Assembly: GCA_027062325.1 (NCBI GenBank)
Contig: JAMOTN010000074.1
Location: 1-18,228, forward strand
Reading direction: 5' to 3'
DNA: 18,228 nucleotides
Source: a bacterium
GTDB taxonomy: Bacteria > JAMOTN01
In this document: positions 1 through 17,440 of the stretch, piece after piece
Layout of the letters: the number at the start of each line of letters is the position of its first letter
How positions within the stretch are numbered: the first letter of the stretch is position 1
Notes under the pieces: model-generated
Told to the model about the DNA's origin: nothing
Database searches by the model: none
The model's input: only the letters and a program-made list of their open reading frames with translations
Program-made: the position numbers and the translations under genes

Positions 1-3000
1 GATGGAAAGGATACGGTTATTGGGAATGCAGCGGTTGTTGTTACTAATATAAGCACGAATAAAAGATATACAAAGCTGACTGATAACTCAGGAGTTGCTT
101 TGTTTATTGGTTTAGATATTGGTGTTTATAAGGTGGAGGTTTCAAAAGAAGGATATCAGAGTTCAGAAACAACTGTTGTTCTTGATACCCCTAAGGAGAT
201 AATAGTTTATTTGAAAGTTGAACAGAGTCCCAATACTGTTAGTGGAAAAATATACGATGCAGATACTAATGAGCCAATTAGTGGTGCAGCAATTGAAGTA
301 AGGGATGCAGACAATGCAATGACTTTTTACGGTTCTGCTAGGAGTGATTCTGATGGAGAATATGTGGTTTACCTAAAAAATCTTCCTACTGATAGGGATC
401 AGGTTTATTTGAAGGTTGGAGTTACAGCTACAGGTTATAAACTAGCTGAGAAGTATCCAATTCTTACAATAGGAGAGTATATTAAAGATTTGGATTTTGC
501 TCTTAAAAAAGCAACTACTGAAGATACAGGAAAAGCTCAATTAACTGGTATTGTAAAAGATGCTGTTACAAATCAATTATTATCAGGAGTTCAAGTTTAT
601 CTGAAAGGAGAAGGTTTTGAAAATACGAAAGTGACGGATAGCTTTGGTGTTTTCAGTTTTTCAGATTTAACTTCTGGAAAATATTTACTGGTAGTGAAAG
701 ATTCTAATAATAAGTACCAACCTTATATGACAGAGTTGGATTTAAGTAGTGGCTTAAATACTATTACAATAGAGCTTCATTTGGTTGGAGAAGGGGCTAC
801 GTGTGAGTTAAGAGGGTTGGTTATTGACAAAGATACAGGGGCTACTGTAGAAGGTGCAGTTGTTGGCGTACTGTTTGAAGGAGGTAGTAAAGAGGTAACT
901 ACTGATTCAGCTGGGAAATTCGAGTTTAAAAAACTGGAGACTGGTCAAGTTACAATGTATGTTCTAAAAGATGGATATAAACCTTATAATGAGACGTTTA
1001 CTCTTAATGCTGGTTTAAATCTTAAAACAATTAAACTTGAGAAGTCTTTTAAAGATAGTGCTTATCTTGGAGTTACAGTTTATGATGAGAGTGGCAAAAT
1101 ATTAAGTTTTCCAAGTGATGAGGCGACAATCTACGTACAAATTTTTGGAAATGGTAGCACTATTGAGATGGAGGCTACGTATGGACTTGCTTTCCCTTAT
1201 GTAGAAGTGAGTAGTGAAATTGATTATGTTATGAAGGTATGGGCGGATTACTATTATCCTACAGTTGAGACTGTAAATTTGAGGCCCTCAGAAGTTAAGC
1301 AAATGCCGGTTGTTCTTTTCCATTATAAAGGGAGTATAGGAGGACGTATTATAGATAAGGATAGTGAAATGCCGGTTGCATCTGCTACTATTGTCTTAAC
1401 TTCAGATATAAAAACTTATACTGGTCAGACAGATGATAATGGTTATTTTTCTTTTGATACTTTGCCTTATGGGACGTATGATATATATATTACAGCTGAT
1501 TATTATCAATCTACTTCTGAGGAAATTGTGTTAGATGCTACTAATCCGACCTACTTTAAAGTTTACAAGCTTGAAAATAGTCAAACAGCTAATATTGTTG
1601 TTCTCTTAAAGGATTACAGTACAGGACAGCCTATAAAAAAAGCCAGTGTTGAATTGGTTTATAATGGTTCGATGTATGATTTTACTTCTCAGGGAAGTGG
1701 AGTGTACGTTTATCAAGGTGCTACTGCGAATGTTCTATTGGTATTACTTGTCACAGCAGAAAATTTTGTAACTACGACGGAGAGTTTTACTTTGAAACTT
1801 GGAGAAACTAAAGTAATGAATGTTAATCTACGCCCAATGTCGTTTACAATTGGTGGAGTTGTTGTGGATAAGACTGATCATAGTAAGATACAAGATGCGT
1901 TTGTAGTGGTATATGGAGAAGGAACATACGCAGTTACTACAAGTGCTGCTGATGGTAGCTTTAATGTTACAGGACTTAGAGCTGGAACCTACTCTGTAAG
2001 AGTTAGTGCAGATGGTTACAATACTTATAGTACGGAGGAAATCCTATTAGGTAAAGCAACTCCATCTGTATTTTTAGAGGTTGAGTTGTCTAAGTTTAAA
2101 GGAACTTTAATAGGATGGGTATTGGATGCTTCAAGTTCTGCTCCAATAAGTGGAGCACAGGTGAACTGTGTCTATGGTAATGAAACTACGGATACTTCTG
2201 GTTTCTTCAAGTTCGAAGATTTGCCTTCAGGTGAGATACTTTTAAACTTCTATGCTGCAGGTTATGAGTTTGTAACTAAATCTGTAACGGTTAACGGTGG
2301 AGATGTTGCTAGTATTACTGTTAAGTTGCCGCCTGCAGCGGGGGGAATAGAAGGACGTTTGAGAACTCCGGACTTTGAGCCTCTTGAAAAGGTGAGCGTT
2401 GAGATAATACAGCTTGGATTAGTGGCAACTACAGAAAGTGATGGTAGTTTTAGATTTACAGGGGTTCCTGCTGGAGATTACCTTATATATGCGTTTTCTC
2501 CTACAATAGAGGCTACTTATGATAACATCACAGTTAATTATTATGCTACTGCTTATGTTGAATTGATTACTGAAAGAAAAACAACTCCGGAATTAATGTT
2601 TTATGTATATGACGCTTCGACTTCTTTAGGAATTGAAGGGGCAACGGTTAGGGTTTTGTGGGTAGATGAAAAAACTAGTGAAGAAGTTAAGACTGCAACT
2701 TATGGTTTTACCACTCTAGGTGTAAAGGTTATAGGGAAAAAGTATATTTATCTTGTTTATAAGGAGGAGTATGCCACTTATTCTTCAGATGTAATAGAAG
2801 CCCCTACTAGTAATGTACTTATAAAAGTACCGCTTGCTCCAATTACTCGAGTTGTTACAGTTACAGTTGAGAATACAATTGATAATTCTCCAATTGCTGG
2901 AGCAAGAGTTGAAATAACAGAAGGAGATAATGTTGGCTATGTGGGCTATACGAATAGTAAGGGAGTCCTGGTGTTACCGCCTGTTTCGAAATATTCCACA

Positions 3001-5100
3001 GTATCTGTGCATGTTACAAAGGGAGATAATTTTGAGGACGGTTACGGAAGCGCAGGTGCAAATGAAAAACAAATTTTAGTTAAACTTATTCCAAAATATG
3101 CATTGGTGTATGGTACTGTAGAAGATTCGGAAGGTTATGGAATGAAGAACGTGCATGTTTATGAGGAAAGTGAATTACTTGCTACAACAAATTCAACTGG
3201 AGAATTTTCTCTTACAGTGCTTTTGACAGATGTTGTGGGGAAAGTTGTTAACTTAAGGTTTGAAAGGGATGGTTATGAAGTTTTATATAAAACCTTCTAT
3301 GTCTCAAGGGGAGCAAGCTATGAATTAGTTGCTACAATGGAAAGCTTACCTTCTGGCTCGGTTACATTCAAGTTAATGGATAAGGATGGAGGTTTAATTT
3401 CTTCTGATAAAAACGCGACTATTGAGATTGTTGGAGCACTATACTCTACTACTGCAGTTTTCAAAGGACCAATTCAGACTATAGAGTTACCTTCGGGAGA
3501 GTATACAGCTATTGCAACAGCAGATTGGTACTGCTCTAGTGTGGATAGTTTTATTGTTGGAGCTGGAGAAAGTTTAATTAGAGAAATACAACTTTCTCCT
3601 AAAAAAGGAAAGGTTTGGGGTTATGTTTATATTCGCCGCATAATAAATGGTGCTACGTTTGAAGAGCCTCTTGAAAATGTTAGTGTTGTTGTTAAGGATT
3701 CGGCTGGGAATGTAGAAGAAGTAATCACTAATAGTAGTGGGTTGTGGTTTGCAACTGTAGAATACGGTACGTGTTCAATAGTAAGAGCTTATCATCCGAC
3801 GTATGGAATTTATGATACTTATGAAGTGGTAAATAAAACTGGAAGTATTAGCGTTTTTCTAGATGAGCCTGCTACTCAGATGGCAACGCTTATATTCTAT
3901 GATAAATACTGGTATATAACTGGTGAGATTTATATGAAGTATCATAAGGATTTAAATGATATTGATGTTTCACAGGAAATCCCTCCGTTTGCTTCGGTAA
4001 CAGTTAAGTTATTAGGTTATGATGAAGCTACTTGGTCTACTGCAGTTGTGAATAACGGTCAGTATATTTTTAGAGGCGTCCCGGAGAGAAAAAGTGGTTA
4101 TAAAATATATGTTATTTCAAACGAGTTTTATCCATTGTTTGCTGATGTAGGTTACACTGTGGAGAGTAGATTTACGGGTCCAACTTTGGAGCTTTCTCCT
4201 AAATTTTACAAAGTTTCGGGACGGGCCTTGGATTTATTCTATTATAATTTAACAGGGAACGATAAAGAGATTCCGGGGGTTACAATTGAAGTTTATGACT
4301 TATTGGAAAATTCTGTGGAAACACGTGTGAATGCTGATTTTGCAGGTAGCTTTGAGTTTAGTGTGCCAATTGGTGTTTACAGAATTGTTGCAGCTTCACC
4401 TGAAAGATGTTGGTTGGAAAAGATAGTTTCTTCTTCTCTTGTGGCTACAGCTGATGTGAATTTAGGGAATGTATATTTATTTCCCAGTACTGAAACTGTG
4501 ACGGGAAGTGTGTACTTGGATGAAGATAAAGATGGAGTTAAGGATGCTGATGAAGATTGGATAAGAGTTGCTAAAAATTATCTTTATAAAGATACCAGTT
4601 TGAAGATTTTATATACATACAGAGGGTTATGGGTTTCTACAGAAAATTATGTTGATTCAAATTCAAGTTTTGAGCTAGTTGTCCCGGTAGCAACCTCGAG
4701 TTGCTCGTATTTGGGGGTTGATGCTTATAGAACTATAAGAGTTAGTGCGGAGAATAAACTGGCGAATGCTGATGTGAATGTGTGGTTGTATAAAAAGAGC
4801 AAAAGTTTGAAAATAGGTATGACTGAATATTCCAGTATTGGGGCTTGGATATGTGGTAGGTTAATAGATGCTTATCTCTACAATTTAAGCGGAGCAGTGT
4901 TAACTGTAAATCAAGCTACAGTAGGGGTCTATTCTCAAGATGGAACTGTTAAGTACGCCTCGGCAAATGTGGATGCAGCAGGTGTATTCCGCGTTTATAT
5001 TCCAAGATGGCCTGAAGAAAAGGTTTTACTGAGGATAGTGCCAACGGAGGAACTTAGCTTAAAGTGTAATAATCAACTTGTTACAGAGAGAAGATACGCC
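1..5100 (+). repeat. Tandem array of about 19 diverged Ig-like modules in the giant protein
   Basis: Approximate module starts, judged by eye from the recurring pattern, are at 1 (partial), 238, 541, 802, 1060, 1330, 1588, 1843, 2098, 2341, 2587, 2848, 3100, 3355, 3607, 3874, 4204, 4492 and 4834. The early spacing is 240-300 bases, growing past 3874 as modules acquire insertions. The clearest copies are those at 541, 802, 1330, 1843 and 2098, for example TDDNGYFSFDTLPYGTY near 1430. The repeats are recognisable only at protein level. I see no long DNA identity between copies, so the array is old rather than a recent tandem expansion. Boundaries are uncertain by about ten residues. Confidence 0.75.
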
Positions 5101-6159
5101 ACATTAGAGCTTTATCAAAAAACTTCTGCGGAATGTAATGTGAATACCACATATGAGATAAACCCAGTTTTTGGTGTTGTTAAATTGGTAATTAAATATG
5201 ATGCGCGTTTTTGGGAGTGGGAGTTTAAAAAGAAAAATGAGTGGGCTGTTGCTTATGGTGTTAAGAGTAATACTCTTCATGCTGGGGATTGGAATATGAA
5301 GCCTGATCCTACGGAGGAGCTTATAACGAATATTACTCCAAATTATTACAACGAAAAACAGAGTGATTCTAGCAAAAAAATTGCAGTTCAATATCCGGGT
5401 ATAGATTTATCAAACTTTACCTCTGATATACGTTACAGTTATTGGGTTAATGGATATTCCATGTGGGTAGAGTTGCAAAATATGCCGGGAGCTGTAATAA
5501 CCCTTACTCATGTTCCGGTAGGAAGTCATGAATTTTATGTATCAGCGGAAGGGTTCTGGACTTCTCGTGTTTACAGGTTGATTGAGTATAATGTTGGCGA
5601 TGGGACTGGAACTTGGGAGGGAATAATAGGAGTTTGTAAAGACGTGTTGGTTACGGCTGAAGCTGCGATGATGCCGATGGGAGTTAATGCCATAGTAGGT
5701 TATTATGGATCATTTAAAGTTACAGATGAGAGTAGTGATAAATGGTTGGCTTGGAAGTGGTGGTTGGCGTCTGATGAGACAAATTATGCTACTGGGTATG
5801 TTGAATTTCTACCAATGGGATGGCGTTATCCATTGAATTCTTCTAGTGATCCTTATTTGTTTACTGTGTATTCATTCCCTGCATCGGGTAATCCAGCTTG
5901 GATTTTGCCGCATCCAGCTTTGTTGCCAAGTTATGGAACGGGGACAGGAGAATACGGGGCATATTACTACGGTACTGTATTTTTCTCAACGTATGGTGCG
6001 GGTATAGATCAACCGAAACCACCTGATCCGACGGTGAGTGTAAAATTGTATGCTCCGATACCTTCTTCTAACTTTTATGTAGGACCTGGTGGATATTACG
6101 GAGATTTTTCAGTTACAGCCGAACAGTGGTTTGAGCCTCAAATTCAATTAGGTGAGTAG
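1..6159 (+). CDS. Giant Ig-like modular surface/secreted protein, 5' partial
   Basis: The reading frame is open from the first base, and those codons already encode a module of the same kind, so the true start lies upstream; the TTG at 100 is not a credible start. At least 2052 residues are visible. The chain is a series of roughly 80-residue modules with the pattern G-x-V-x-D, then PI-x-GA-x-V, then T-D-x-x-G-x-F-x-F, then L-x-x-G-x-Y-x-L-x-V and a GY element. This is the signature of carboxypeptidase-regulatory-like (prealbumin/Ig-type beta-sandwich) domains, common in exported adhesins and stalk-like surface proteins. The last third is less regular and ends in a Trp/Tyr/Gly-rich region. 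There is no C-terminal membrane helix, LPXTG motif or obvious sorting tag. A tail region with its own fold could be the adhesive or anchoring end. The exported location is inferred from domain type, since the N-terminus is not visible. The specific role is unknown. Confidence 0.9.
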   Translation, partial: DGKDTVIGNAAVVVTNISTNKRYTKLTDNSGVALFIGLDIGVYKVEVSKEGYQSSETTVVLDTPKEIIVYLKVEQSPNTVSGKIYDADTNEPISGAAIEVRDADNAMTFYGSARSDSDGEYVVYLKNLPTDRDQVYLKVGVTATGYKLAEKYPILTIGEYIKDLDFALKKATTEDTGKAQLTGIVKDAVTNQLLSGVQVYLKGEGFENTKVTDSFGVFSFSDLTSGKYLLVVKDSNNKYQPYMTELDLSSGLNTITIELHLVGEGATCELRGLVIDKDTGATVEGAVVGVLFEGGSKEVTTDSAGKFEFKKLETGQVTMYVLKDGYKPYNETFTLNAGLNLKTIKLEKSFKDSAYLGVTVYDESGKILSFPSDEATIYVQIFGNGSTIEMEATYGLAFPYVEVSSEIDYVMKVWADYYYPTVETVNLRPSEVKQMPVVLFHYKGSIGGRIIDKDSEMPVASATIVLTSDIKTYTGQTDDNGYFSFDTLPYGTYDIYITADYYQSTSEEIVLDATNPTYFKVYKLENSQTANIVVLLKDYSTGQPIKKASVELVYNGSMYDFTSQGSGVYVYQGATANVLLVLLVTAENFVTTTESFTLKLGETKVMNVNLRPMSFTIGGVVVDKTDHSKIQDAFVVVYGEGTYAVTTSAADGSFNVTGLRAGTYSVRVSADGYNTYSTEEILLGKATPSVFLEVELSKFKGTLIGWVLDASSSAPISGAQVNCVYGNETTDTSGFFKFEDLPSGEILLNFYAAGYEFVTKSVTVNGGDVASITVKLPPAAGGIEGRLRTPDFEPLEKVSVEIIQLGLVATTESDGSFRFTGVPAGDYLIYAFSPTIEATYDNITVNYYATAYVELITERKTTPELMFYVYDASTSLGIEGATVRVLWVDEKTSEEVKTATYGFTTLGVKVIGKKYIYLVYKEEYATYSSDVIEAPTSNVLIKVPLAPITRVVTVTVENTIDNSPIAGARVEITEGDNVGYVGYTNSKGVLVLPPVSKYSTVSVHVTKGDNFEDGYGSAGANEKQILVKLIPKYALVYGTVEDSEGYGMKNVHVYEESELLATTNSTGEFSLTVLLTDVVGKVVNLRFERDGYEVLYKTFYVSRGASYELVATMESLPSGSVTFKLMDKDGGLISSDKNATIEIVGALYSTTAVFKGPIQTIELPSGEYTAIATADWYCSSVDSFIVGAGESLIREIQLSPKKGKVWGYVYIRRIINGATFEEPLENVSVVVKDSAGNVEEVITNSSGLWFATVEYGTCSIVRAYHPTYGIYDTYEVVNKTGSISVFLDEPATQMATLIFYDKYWYITGEIYMKYHKDLNDIDVSQEIPPFASVTVKLLGYDEATWSTAVVNNGQYIFRGVPERKSGYKIYVISNEFYPLFADVGYTVESRFTGPTLELSPKFYKVSGRALDLFYYNLTGNDKEIPGVTIEVYDLLENSVETRVNADFAGSFEFSVPIGVYRIVAASPERCWLEKIVSSSLVATADVNLGNVYLFPSTETVTGSVYLDEDKDGVKDADEDWIRVAKNYLYKDTSLKILYTYRGLWVSTENYVDSNSSFELVVPVATSSCSYLGVDAYRTIRVSAENKLANADVNVWLYKKSKSLKIGMTEYSSIGAWICGRLIDAYLYNLSGAVLTVNQATVGVYSQDGTVKYASANVDAAGVFRVYIPRWPEEKVLLRIVPTEELSLKCNNQLVTERRYATLELYQKTSAECNVNTTYEINPVFGVVKLVIKYDARFWEWEFKKKNEWAVAYGVKSNTLHAGDWNMKPDPTEELITNITPNYYNEKQSDSSKKIAVQYPGIDLSNFTSDIRYSYWVNGYSMWVELQNMPGAVITLTHVPVGSHEFYVSAEGFWTSRVYRLIEYNVGDGTGTWEGIIGVCKDVLVTAEAAMMPMGVNAIVGYYGSFKVTDESSDKWLAWKWWLASDETNYATGYVEFLPMGWRYPLNSSSDPYLFTVYSFPASGNPAWILPHPALLPSYGTGTGEYGAYYYGTVFFSTYGAGIDQPKPPDPTVSVKLYAPIPSSNFYVGPGGYYGDFSVTAEQWFEPQIQLGE
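4519..4554 (+). other. EF-hand-like calcium-binding loop inside an SdrD-B-like module
   Basis: The twelve residues DEDKDGVKDADE place acidic side chains at loop positions 1, 3, 5, 9 and 12 with Gly at 6, the canonical EF-hand/dockerin loop spacing. The preceding residues TGSVYL make the whole resemble SdrD B-type repeats of surface proteins, which bind calcium to rigidify a stalk. It is the only such loop I see in the protein. Calcium binding is inferred from the pattern. Confidence 0.6.
5128..6156 (+). other. Unique C-terminal region of the giant protein, Trp/Tyr/Gly rich
   Basis: After the last module the sequence changes character. It is rich in Trp, Tyr and Gly (for example WEWEFKKKNEW near 5215 and WLAWKWWLAS near 5743) and has short Pro/Gly loops near the end such as PSSNFYVGPGGYYGDF. 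One partial module-like element (MPGAVITLTHVPVGSHEFYV, near 5482) is embedded. I do not recognise a family. Its position at the free end of a long stalk suggests a binding head or an outer-membrane attachment domain, which is inference only. Confidence 0.55.
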
Positions 6160-12443: not shown

Positions 12444-14105
12444 GTGGCAGAGATAGCGAATTTAAAAGAGGGGCTCACGGATAAGGAGTTATTGGCTGAA
12501 ATTGATGCTATAGATAGACGTATTGAGAAGGAGATAGAAAGACTCAATATCAAAGAGGAAAAGAACGATGCTTGGAGGAGTTTGATAAGTGTTTATTGGC
12601 AACTGTGCGAGTGGATAATAAAAAAGCAACTCAAAAGTTTTGGAATATTTGACTCTCAAAATTTAACACCTCTAGAGAGAAGTATTTTAGACTTTGGATT
12701 TTTAGATTCGAGGATTTCAGGAGATCTTGTTAATAAGTTAGGGACTCTTTTGGAAAGGTATAAAAAAGTGGTGAGGATCAATAAATTTGTTTTTTATCCA
12801 GTTAGTGAATATTTGAAGGAGATTTTTTTAAGAAAAGTTGGATGGTATGCACTTCAAGAGGAGAAAAAGAAATTGGATGAGCTGAAGGCTCAGTACTCTA
12901 AAGTTGTTGAGACAATAAAAGTGTTAGCCGGTAAATTACAGCAACAGTTGCATTATAACTTTTTTGAGTTCATGAAAAAGGTTGATAGGAAAAGTTTTTT
13001 AAGGTTTAAGTTAAATTCTGGGCAAGTTTTGCCTCCTGAAGAAAAACAAGAGTTACTTTCACTTGAGGAGGAATTAAATGCTACTAGTGAGACTATAAAA
13101 ATGGCTGCAAGGAAGGTTTCGGAAGGGCTCGCTTCTATGGTTACTCAATGGTTTGGGTTATTCGATACTCAAAATAAACTTGCTTCTGAATTAGAGAAGC
13201 AACAGGGAAAAGTGACAGCAATGCAGAATGATTTTGACAACATGAGATTAGCTGTGAAAGAGGATAGAGTTTTAGAGGCGTATAGGTTGTTAAGGCAGTA
13301 CATAAAACATACTCCACTTTTGAGCATGTGGGGAGAGGAGATAGAGCCTTTTAAGGTGGTTTCATACTTTGAAAATTTAATTTTCCTAAATGATAGGCGC
13401 TTTTCTGAGAATAGTAGGGTAAAAAATAAGATAATAGAGATAGTAGTAGTTCCCGGATGTAATCGCTACGGAACTTTCATTTTTGAGGAGAGTTTCTTTA
13501 TGTTTCCTTTGGTGGCAGAAAGGAACGTTTTGGAGGTTATAGCTTCTTCTGTTGCAGATTTTCATTGGTATACAGATGACATGTATGAATTAAGGGGGAG
13601 TTTTCAAACGATCAGTAAAGAGCTTATGCGAATGTCCACTGCTGGATTGAAAAAGGAGTGGTTTAATAGCTACATTCTGTGGATAGTTAAGGAATCTCAA
13701 GGTTACAAGGTTATGGATAAGAATTATAGGAAGTGGTTTAAAGGATTTTTGAGGCCTATTTCTAAGAAAAAGTTAGAAGAGATGTTGAGGGGTAAAGAGG
13801 AGAAAGAGCAGAAGAAAGAGATTGAAGTTAAGGATGATCGGGAGGAGCAGAGTAGAAAAGAGTTGGAGGCTAAGCAAGAGCAATTGAAGAGCATTGTAGC
13901 AACAGTTAATAATACCTTTTCTCAGGTGGTGGAGAAATTAGCTTCTCAAAATAAATTTTTTAAAGAAAAATTAAAGGTAAGTGCTCGAATAAATGTTGAC
14001 AAAGTAGTATTTGATTTAAGTATATCGGATTGCAGTGCTAGTGAACTTGAAACTATTATGAGTGAATTGATAAAAGTTATCTCTGTTGTGAAAAAAATAG
14101 TTTAA
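12444..14105 (+). CDS. Uncharacterised 553-residue coiled-coil cytoplasmic protein
   Basis: I do not recognise this family. It lacks a signal peptide and membrane helix. It is strongly helical and charged, with coiled-coil-like stretches at roughly 140-180, 200-275 and 440-500, the last being Glu/Lys-rich. Between them (about 331-385) is a more compact segment with beta-like patches, IEIVVVPGCNRYGTFIFEES and MFPLVAERNVLEVI, followed by Trp/Tyr-containing helices. The C-terminal 60 residues (ARINVDKVVFDLSISDCSAS and on) form another short folded unit. It begins 16 bases after the diguanylate cyclase, with GTG 12444 behind a GGTGGTG stretch, so the two are probably co-translated. A scaffold or c-di-GMP/GAF-linked effector role would fit the context but is not shown by any motif. 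Confidence 0.85.
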   Translation: MAEIANLKEGLTDKELLAEIDAIDRRIEKEIERLNIKEEKNDAWRSLISVYWQLCEWIIKKQLKSFGIFDSQNLTPLERSILDFGFLDSRISGDLVNKLGTLLERYKKVVRINKFVFYPVSEYLKEIFLRKVGWYALQEEKKKLDELKAQYSKVVETIKVLAGKLQQQLHYNFFEFMKKVDRKSFLRFKLNSGQVLPPEEKQELLSLEEELNATSETIKMAARKVSEGLASMVTQWFGLFDTQNKLASELEKQQGKVTAMQNDFDNMRLAVKEDRVLEAYRLLRQYIKHTPLLSMWGEEIEPFKVVSYFENLIFLNDRRFSENSRVKNKIIEIVVVPGCNRYGTFIFEESFFMFPLVAERNVLEVIASSVADFHWYTDDMYELRGSFQTISKELMRMSTAGLKKEWFNSYILWIVKESQGYKVMDKNYRKWFKGFLRPISKKKLEEMLRGKEEKEQKKEIEVKDDREEQSRKELEAKQEQLKSIVATVNNTFSQVVEKLASQNKFFKEKLKVSARINVDKVVFDLSISDCSASELETIMSELIKVISVVKKIV

Positions 14106-15420: not shown

Positions 15421-16104
15421 GTGGTGAGATTTAAATCTGGTGCTGAGAGTAAGGTTTTTAAAGTAGATTTGCATTGTCATACTTCTGACTTTTCAGCATG
15501 TGCTCGTTCAAGTTTAGAAGAAGTTTTGGAAGTTGCTTTTTCTAAATTGGATACGTTGTTTATAACGGAGCATCACGTTATTTATCCTCACGAACAGATA
15601 AATTTTGTACTCTCTAAATACTCTGGTTTATTTGGAATTTTAAGTGTTATTCCTGCGCAAGAGGTTACGGTTTATGAAGGAGGAGACGTGTTAATCTACG
15701 GTGTGGATTTTGACATTCCTGCTCGGATAAGCTTGAAAAATTTAAGAGAAATTGTTCTCTCTTACAACTATGATGAAAGAGATGTTGTTGCTATATGGGC
15801 GCATCCTTATAGATTTGGAGCTCCTTTGGTTGAATATGTTGAGTTGATGGATTTTATTGATGCAATAGAGGTTTTGAATGGCAACTGCACAGATTATGAG
15901 AATGCGTTGGCTATTGAGCTTGCGGAGCGTATGGGGAAGCCTATGGTTGCAGGAAGTGATGCTCACAGGGCAAAAGATGTGGCAAGGCTTTACAATCTAT
16001 CCTATGTTCCAATTCACAATGTTGGTGATTTAAAATTGGCTTTAAAGAGTGGAAAGATTAGGCCGTGCTGTTTGGAGAGAATTGTAAATGGAAGTAAGAA
16101 TTAG
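15421..16104 (+). CDS. PHP-domain metal-dependent phosphoesterase
   Basis: PHP-family enzymes hydrolyse phosphate esters (as in histidinol phosphatase or nucleotide/RNA 3'-end phosphatases) using two or three metals. The metal-ligand set is complete: H18-x-H20 in DLHCHT, E50-H51 in ITEHH, E81 in AQEV, H128 in WAHP, and D180-x-H182 in GSDAH. At 227 residues it is a stand-alone PHP domain with no polymerase or helix-hairpin-helix extension. GTG 15421 follows GAAGGGGG by six bases; the adjacent GTG 15424 is an equally possible start at nine. It overlaps the ferredoxin-fusion gene by 17 bases, implying translational coupling. The substrate is unknown and the odd partner gives little clue. Confidence 0.9.
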   Translation: MVRFKSGAESKVFKVDLHCHTSDFSACARSSLEEVLEVAFSKLDTLFITEHHVIYPHEQINFVLSKYSGLFGILSVIPAQEVTVYEGGDVLIYGVDFDIPARISLKNLREIVLSYNYDERDVVAIWAHPYRFGAPLVEYVELMDFIDAIEVLNGNCTDYENALAIELAERMGKPMVAGSDAHRAKDVARLYNLSYVPIHNVGDLKLALKSGKIRPCCLERIVNGSKN

Positions 16105-17440
16105 GGAAGAAGATCACGAACAAACAGATAGTTTTAATAAAAGTTTGAAACTGAAATGGAATAGAGAAAAATGCACGGGCTGCAGGGCTTGCGAAGTTGC
16201 ATGTTTGGCAGCTTACAATGAGCAGCCTTTAGCGGTTAGTCTTTTATTTGTTGCTTCATCTCCGTTGAGATTCAAGAATGGGGAGATTGTTTTGTGTAAG
16301 CTTTGTAATGAATGCAAAGCTCAAGAGGCTTGTACTTCTGGTGCTTTTAGAAGATCAAGCAAAGGTTTTGAAATAGATAGATATAGATGCACTTCTTGTT
16401 TGAGTTGCGTTGTTGCTTGTCCGTACGATGTGCCTTTTTACGATGGTAGTCGTGTTGTTATGTGTAATGCCTGTGACGGAGAATTTTCGTGCGTTAAAGC
16501 ATGTAAAGGTGGAGCTTTAAGATTGGAAAGTTTGAAAGAAGAAAATTTTATAGGGAAAAGATGTGGAGAAGATGAAAATGAGTTGGAAGTATCGCGTTCA
16601 GAGATGAATTTTGTTGTTGGAGAAGGAGAGGTTGCATGGGAGGTATTGAGAAGTTTAAAGGGGAAAAACAACTTTTTAGTGGGGCGCGTTTTTCCTTACT
16701 ACTGTAGAAATATATCACTCATTGTTTTTAATTATTCTTCGTTTAGAAAAGCAGAGATTGCGTCAAAAGATGAATTCTTTAAGGTTTGCAATGAGTTTAT
16801 AGAAATTAAATATTATAGTGGTTTTGAAGAGAAAATTTTAGAAGTTTTGGAGGAAAAAGTTGTCCGAAAAGAGGGTGATTTTGAAGTAAATATCTATCTT
16901 ACTCCTGTTTTTGATATAAATGGAGTTTTGTTTGAGTTAGCAAGGAAGAGGGTTTATACTGAACCTAACAGAAGATTTTTGATTTATGGTACGGGCTTTA
17001 GAGCTCTCGAGTTTTGTTTGTTAGCTTCAGAAAAGGGATTTGAAGTTTTCTGGGCTTATCCTGGTAATTTCGGAGTTAAAACAGATCAAGAGGGGTTACT
17101 AAAAAGACTGTTATTTAGAAAGGGTATAAAAGTTTTTCCATGGTTTGAATTGGTGGAAGTGAAGCGTGGGTTTCTCTCCAACACTTATAGAATTATTTCT
17201 AAGAATGGGGAGATATTGGTTGGAGACTACTTTGTTGATTTTAGAAATTTAACTTACACCTATCCTTCATTTGATGTTGTTCAATTCAAAAATGCGCTGA
17301 AAAACTACAAAGTTAATTTAAAATTTGTTTCATTTTCAAAGCAAGAAATTTTCTCTAGGAGGTTTGAGGATTGGTGGATTTTTGAAAAAGATTACAAGGT
17401 GATCGTTAGGTATCCCTATAAAGTTAGTTTTAATAACTAA
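16088..17440 (+). CDS. CooF/DMSO-reductase-beta-like ferredoxin fused to a decayed NAD(P)/FAD oxidoreductase
   Basis: Residues 29-139 hold four Cys quartets: C29-C32-C35-C39, C70-C73-C76-C82, C101-C104-C107-C111 (followed by P) and C126-C129-C135-C139. This is the four-[4Fe-4S] arrangement of electron-transfer subunits such as CooF, HycB or DmsB. From about 173 the sequence resembles the N-terminal FAD region of pyridine-nucleotide disulphide oxidoreductases (NFVVGEGEVAWEVLRSL, then VFPYYCR, like the usual PYYSRPLL). From about 296 it resembles the NAD(P) Rossmann region (LIYGTGFRALEFCLLASEKG). Both glycine motifs are degraded (GEGEVA; GTGFRA), and the C-terminal FAD-contact GD region and dimer domain are not recognisable; the protein ends at 450 residues. 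GGAGAG lies eight bases before ATG 16088. It could be an electron carrier whose reductase half is now structural. The first half is certain and the second is inference. Confidence 0.85.
   Translation: MEVRIREEDHEQTDSFNKSLKLKWNREKCTGCRACEVACLAAYNEQPLAVSLLFVASSPLRFKNGEIVLCKLCNECKAQEACTSGAFRRSSKGFEIDRYRCTSCLSCVVACPYDVPFYDGSRVVMCNACDGEFSCVKACKGGALRLESLKEENFIGKRCGEDENELEVSRSEMNFVVGEGEVAWEVLRSLKGKNNFLVGRVFPYYCRNISLIVFNYSSFRKAEIASKDEFFKVCNEFIEIKYYSGFEEKILEVLEEKVVRKEGDFEVNIYLTPVFDINGVLFELARKRVYTEPNRRFLIYGTGFRALEFCLLASEKGFEVFWAYPGNFGVKTDQEGLLKRLLFRKGIKVFPWFELVEVKRGFLSNTYRIISKNGEILVGDYFVDFRNLTYTYPSFDVVQFKNALKNYKVNLKFVSFSKQEIFSRRFEDWWIFEKDYKVIVRYPYKVSFNN

Follow-up and report, generated by a model that had tools for sequence, protein, structure and literature searches.

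One open reading frame of the window (the whole stretch of DNA analysed, 18,228 nt) encodes a complete 16-Cys ferredoxin domain fused to a flavoprotein-like part that appears to have lost its flavin-contact motifs. Such a fusion, put forward in an earlier note on this DNA, is borne out by a single 450-aa ORF, by Fer4 matches and by the 16 Cys. The preferred reading, which is given an even chance, is that of a fused pair of AorA-AorC/CooF-FNOR type, the flavoprotein half of which would serve in docking and would no longer reduce NAD. Coordinates of the features below are those of the window.

15421..16104, + strand: PHP-domain protein (PHP_C); 17-bp overlap with the fusion gene.
16074..16079, + strand: Shine-Dalgarno-like GGAGAG, read from the sequence, 8 nt upstream of the ATG of the fusion gene.
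16088..17440, + strand: fusion ORF, polyferredoxin and putative FNOR/AorC-like relic, 450 aa (ORF call, codon usage).
16145..16537, + strand: four-cluster ferredoxin domain of AorA/CooF type, residues 20-150 (16 Cys, Pfam/NCBIfam Fer4 matches, PDB matches, tree, gene context).
16538..16600, + strand: linker, residues 151-171, placed between the two domains.
16601..16891, + strand: FAD-half-like region, residues 172-268 (collinear motifs VVGEGEVA and PYYCR, LTP replacing ATG; not significant alone).
16892..17287, + strand: predicted NAD-binding-domain fold, residues 269-400, with GTGFRALE at 301-308 (AF2, Foldseek, VIA, sequence z).
17288..17437, + strand: C-terminal tail, residues 401-450, without AAGD and with no detectable Rubredoxin_C domain.

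The 16 Cys of the ferredoxin domain form four [4Fe-4S]-type motifs (29, 32, 35, 39; 70, 73, 76, 82; 101, 104, 107, 111; 126, 129, 135, 139), and four additional Cys are found downstream. Pfam Fer4 models match residues 23-139. The PDB sequence matches of the domain are HycB4 and WorS-like and AorA-like FeS subunits. Membership of two described families was rejected: the AegA/YgfT models NF009451 and NF009408 match residues 25-148 only, i.e. the ferredoxin part, and the PadI model NF045766 (phenylglyoxylate dehydrogenase beta) matches residues 22-148 only (model positions 7-137 of 443). The second cluster is atypical, CxxCxxCx5C versus CxxCx4CxxxC in 57 of the 62 rows of the ferredoxin tree, which represent 61 different ferredoxins. 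Among the latter, this spacing is common to the fusion protein and L006 only; L006 adjoins an AOR. At L189:5780-6208 (G048:C7), an AOR-adjacent ferredoxin with a CxxCxxCx5C second cluster is followed by a MoaD-like small ORF.

In the tree of 62 rows, the fusion ferredoxin, whose branch is very long (2.23), lies inside a set of 23 rows (support 97/88). AOR genes adjoin 18 of the 21 other ferredoxins of this set and none of the 40 outside it. With the duplicate removed, the fusion ferredoxin and the AOR set form one side of a branch (support 68/93). The ferredoxin had been described as CooF-like. It does belong to the four-cluster AorA/CooF type; tree and gene context make it lean towards the FeS subunits of tungsten aldehyde oxidoreductases (AorA type) rather than towards CooF, the CooF/GltS alternative not being rejected by the AU test (p 0.20).

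No Pfam, NCBIfam or PHROG model matches the C-terminal part (about 280 residues), and FNOR profile HMMs score it no better than shuffled sequence. Recognition of the NAD half required pairwise family scores and folds. In pairwise comparison with FNOR-like and related proteins, the C-terminal part as a whole has a mean z of 0.98, higher than 300 of 300 shuffles. For the NAD half against the NAD halves of the FNOR family, mean z is 1.8 and max z 8.3; none of 400 shuffles reaches as high. The sole plausible phmmer match of the C-terminal part in the PDB is 1xhc, at the NAD domain (E 0.073, not significant alone). Similarity of the C-terminal tail to the FNOR-family tail is not significant on average. 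Matches of the C-terminal part in 386 genomes are at chance level, the best open-frame ones being kinase-like and glycosyltransferase-like ORFs (by eye).

AlphaFold2 models were built from the single sequence, without templates. For residues 164-450 the model is of low quality (pLDDT 40); its best 50 Foldseek matches are all pyridine-nucleotide oxidoreductases, 1xhc included, and the VIA alignments are confined to model residues 103-215, with a best Z of 8.0. Modelled alone, residues 264-400 reach a pLDDT of 62.7 and a pTM of 0.62. Their best matches are thioredoxin reductase 5j60 with Foldseek (E 1.2e-4) and ferredoxin reductase 3fg2 with VIA (Z 9.8, rmsd 2.9 over 105 residues), and all top matches of both programs are GR-family NAD domains. 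The structural comparison proposed in the note, made with Foldseek and VIA, yielded the NAD-domain fold of pyridine-nucleotide oxidoreductases for the second Rossmann region; the refuting outcome, a lack of any structural match, did not occur. From the predicted fold and the sequence scores taken together, residues 269-400 are established as an NAD-binding domain of FNOR/ferredoxin-reductase/NADH-oxidase type.

Both Rossmann regions had been claimed. The second (NAD) stands, by fold and sequence z; the assignment of residues 172-268 to the first (FAD) is only suggestive. Compared with shuffles, the FAD half has a mean z of 0.0 and its max z is equalled in 10% of cases, i.e. not above chance when taken alone. 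The NAD-binding-like domain might be the only relic, residues 172-268 being unrelated and GxGxxA and PYYCR matching by chance. Both the mean z of 0.0 and the limitation of structural alignments to model residues 103-215 agree with this explanation; it is nevertheless held to be unlikely, given that VVGEGEVA...PYYCR...NIYLTPVFDINGV...GTGFRALE follow each other in the order and spacing of the FNOR layout and that some Foldseek alignments (1xhc included) cover 250-290 model columns, at high rmsd.

In the fusion protein, GEGEVA is located at 178-183, YYCR at 204 and GTGFRA at 301. R207 (PYYCR) occupies the place of AorC Arg41, by motif alignment. Each glycine motif had been described as broken; the damage is smaller than stated. 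Both keep GxGxxA, which in the case of GTGFRA is the form of NADPH-type motifs. The first motif is variable among 31 FNOR-family relatives (G..G, 14; S..A/S..S, 7; S..G, 6; G..A/G..S, 3; not found, 1). Because it is often GNSxAx or GNSxAG in FNOR-like relatives, GEGEVA does not, as judged from sequence, appear clearly broken, and the term is an overstatement. The second motif is G.G..G in 30 of the 31 relatives, among which the form of GTGFRA is unusual.

What the flavoprotein half has clearly lost are the motifs ATG and AAGD, along with any detectable C-terminal flavin part. G104 of the ATG motif and A270-D273 of AAGD are invariant in the FNOR alignment A1. The fusion protein has LTP where ATG is expected and has neither AGD nor AAGD. 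No Pfam match to a Rubredoxin_C-like C-terminal domain and no C-terminal flavin part were detected in it. The loss of the flavin-contact part, as first proposed, is therefore upheld. A reductase that still works, i.e. a fused ferredoxin:NAD(P)H oxidoreductase using NADP(H) via GTGFRA and binding FAD atypically, would be in keeping with the retention of both GxGxxA motifs and of an Arg at the place of AorC Arg41, and with GNSxAx being normal in the FNOR-like family. It is likewise considered unlikely: the ATG Gly and AAGD, both invariant in alignment A1, are missing, the second strand (FEVFWAYPG) is not followed by an acidic or Arg residue, and no C-terminal flavin part was detected.

The coordinates 16088-17440 (+) of the ORF are exact, and the ORF is complete. 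Its in-frame codon-usage score (0.253) lies within the range of its neighbours (PHP, 0.312; KamA, 0.24; TyrRS, 0.27). For the C-terminal part alone, the score (0.221) is only slightly better than in the shifted frames (0.202 and 0.142). The neighbouring genes encode an aminotransferase, the PHP protein and a radical SAM protein; the contig ends at 18228. Because of the 17-bp overlap, the PHP gene and the fusion gene are probably co-translated. Decay of the gene, or a misassembly joining a ferredoxin gene to a degenerate flavoprotein gene, is very improbable: the sequence does come from one draft genome (84% complete, 81 contigs) with no second copy, but 450 codons are open with neighbour-like codon usage, all 16 Cys are kept, the gene has a ribosome-binding site and is coupled to the PHP gene, and the two domains are separated by a linker of about 20 residues instead of being joined abruptly. 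A link to [FeFe]-hydrogenase via the PHP gene found no support; no conserved ferredoxin or other redox neighbour was found beside relatives of the PHP protein.

Separate genes of AorA/CooF type and AorC/FNOR type form a common adjacent pair in many genomes, frequently overlapping by a few bases, as had been stated for ferredoxins and flavoproteins of these kinds. Of 68 ferredoxin matches from 59 genomes, 12 have a Rubredoxin_C flavoprotein on the same strand at a distance of up to 8 kb, most of them at the spacing expected for an FNOR gene directly next (about 1-1.2 kb). Many such pairs are inside split glutamate synthase clusters, recognised from sequence. Those at L089, L093, L096, L097, L103, L104, L106 and L170 belong to several unrelated genomes; an FMN part, an amidotransferase and/or a GXGXG part were recognised from sequence in these clusters. 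No fused ferredoxin-FNOR ORF was found in the loci examined up to that stage. The search for the same fusion in other genomes returned no orthologue from GTDB r220 contigs, viral contigs, plasmids or the 386 sampled genomes, so that the fusion is represented by one sequence only. A search of one library of papers returned none on a CooF-FNOR fusion.

The best solved match of the FNOR profile is AorC (chain 8c0z_E, E 4.5e-93). AorA and AorC of Aromatoleum aromaticum (8c0z) are, like the two parts of the fusion, a four-cluster ferredoxin and an FNOR-type flavoprotein, docked on each other, and the fusion ferredoxin leans towards AOR-associated FeS proteins. They are encoded by two genes versus one chain in the fusion, which is not flanked by an AOR gene; AorC is an FAD-binding subunit that reduces NAD+, whereas the fusion is without the flavin motifs. 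In CODH gene clusters, CooF and an FNOR assigned to COG1251 form a pair (PMC6344411, PMC4703632). The two-part layout is the same, as neighbouring genes; these are unfused with intact FNOR motifs, whereas the window has no CODH gene and the host only a shortened CooS-like one. Split glutamate synthase clusters likewise have a CooF-like ferredoxin gene followed directly by an FNOR gene, often overlapping, but as separate genes, and the host has no detectable glutamate synthase domain. The NADH oxidase/nitrite reductase 1xhc of Pyrococcus furiosus resembles the fusion by the sequence match of its NAD domain and by being among the top fold matches; it is an intact flavoprotein without a ferredoxin. 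A four-cluster ferredoxin-flavoprotein fusion is already known, with another type of flavoprotein: in E. coli AegA/YgfT, a HydN-like four-cluster ferredoxin is fused to a flavoprotein (PMC8097209), the C-terminal half being GltD-like.

Under the preferred reading, that of a fused pair with a docking flavoprotein half, the protein would derive from the widespread combination of a four-cluster ferredoxin with an FAD/NAD reductase, brought together in one chain. A catalytic partner, most likely an enzyme of tungsten aldehyde oxidoreductase type, would feed electrons into the four [4Fe-4S] clusters, and these would travel down the wire. In AorABC, the flavoprotein on the last cluster receives the electrons and hands them to NAD+. 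In the fusion, the flavoprotein half keeps the NAD-domain fold but is without ATG, AAGD and a detectable C-terminal flavin part, and would be a covalent docking platform or a cap for the wire. If it carries out no NAD reduction via FAD, electrons must leave to another acceptor. By analogy, an AorC relic devoid of flavin could plausibly act in docking, because AorC also nucleates the AorABC complex/filament and 9.5 A separate the last AorA cluster, FS4, from the AorC flavin, FAD (PMC10413684). That FAD is no longer bound, that the half serves in docking, that an AOR is the partner and that the gene is under selection are all inferred. Points against this reading are the single known sequence, the lack of an AOR or CODH gene in the contig, the separate FeS partner of the host's AOR, the AU result, the very long ferredoxin branch and the non-significant FAD half. 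Of the proposed repurposed electron carrier or docking module, the fusion and the lost flavin motifs are retained; the loss of cofactor sites lies outside the glycine motifs. Together they suggest that a reductase was turned into a component for docking or relay.

Flavoprotein subunits capping ferredoxin wires are usually seen as the NAD exit, and AorC is also reported as a nucleator. In a copy that is fused and has no flavin motifs, these two roles would come apart, which would provide a natural test of whether the structural one can persist on its own. Besides AorA/AorC-type proteins encoded by separate genes and AegA with its GltD-type half, the module would then have a third arrangement, that of a fusion lacking flavin.

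The host belongs to a poorly sampled lineage and has no phylum-mate among the comparison genomes. Its genome encodes one ordinary AOR (C80), accompanied by an FeS protein of its own, and contains Rnf genes and [FeFe]-hydrogenase genes, the hydrogenase being read from sequence. The Rubredoxin_C domain (PF18267) has no match in its genome. No AOR or CODH gene is present in the 18-kb contig, and the ferredoxin adjoins no catalytic partner. A CODH partner was rejected, the only matches of PF03063 being a hybrid-cluster protein (hydroxylamine reductase) and a shortened CooS-like protein, with no intact CooS; a glutamate synthase partner was also rejected, PF01645 being absent from the host genome. 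The CooS-like protein (251 aa; G000:C67:12075-12827, L169:3076-3828, +), the only one found in this genome, matches TIGR01702 at residues 31-71 (E 7e-5) and has six N-terminal CooS Cys (D and B clusters, by spacing), with no C-cluster domain found. G000:C4:470-2236 (-) (L261:470-2236 -) encodes a 588-aa AOR-like protein with AFOR_N at 169-304; its aldolase-like N-terminus resembles the adjacent DeoC-like protein (blastp E 6e-8). DeoC releases acetaldehyde, which is an AOR substrate. A speculative reading, quite doubtful, is that this lineage rebuilt parts of its aldehyde/CO redox machinery from eroded modules (the fusion, the AOR-like protein and the CooS-like protein). The fusion could then act as both wire and cap in an AOR-like complex of a new kind, the former NAD reductase having a purely structural role.

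Elsewhere in the window, 12444-14105 encodes a 553-aa protein with no Pfam match above cut-off. Positions 1-6159 code for the last >2050 aa of a very long protein, the start of which is cut off; it is made up of repeated CarboxypepD_reg domains.
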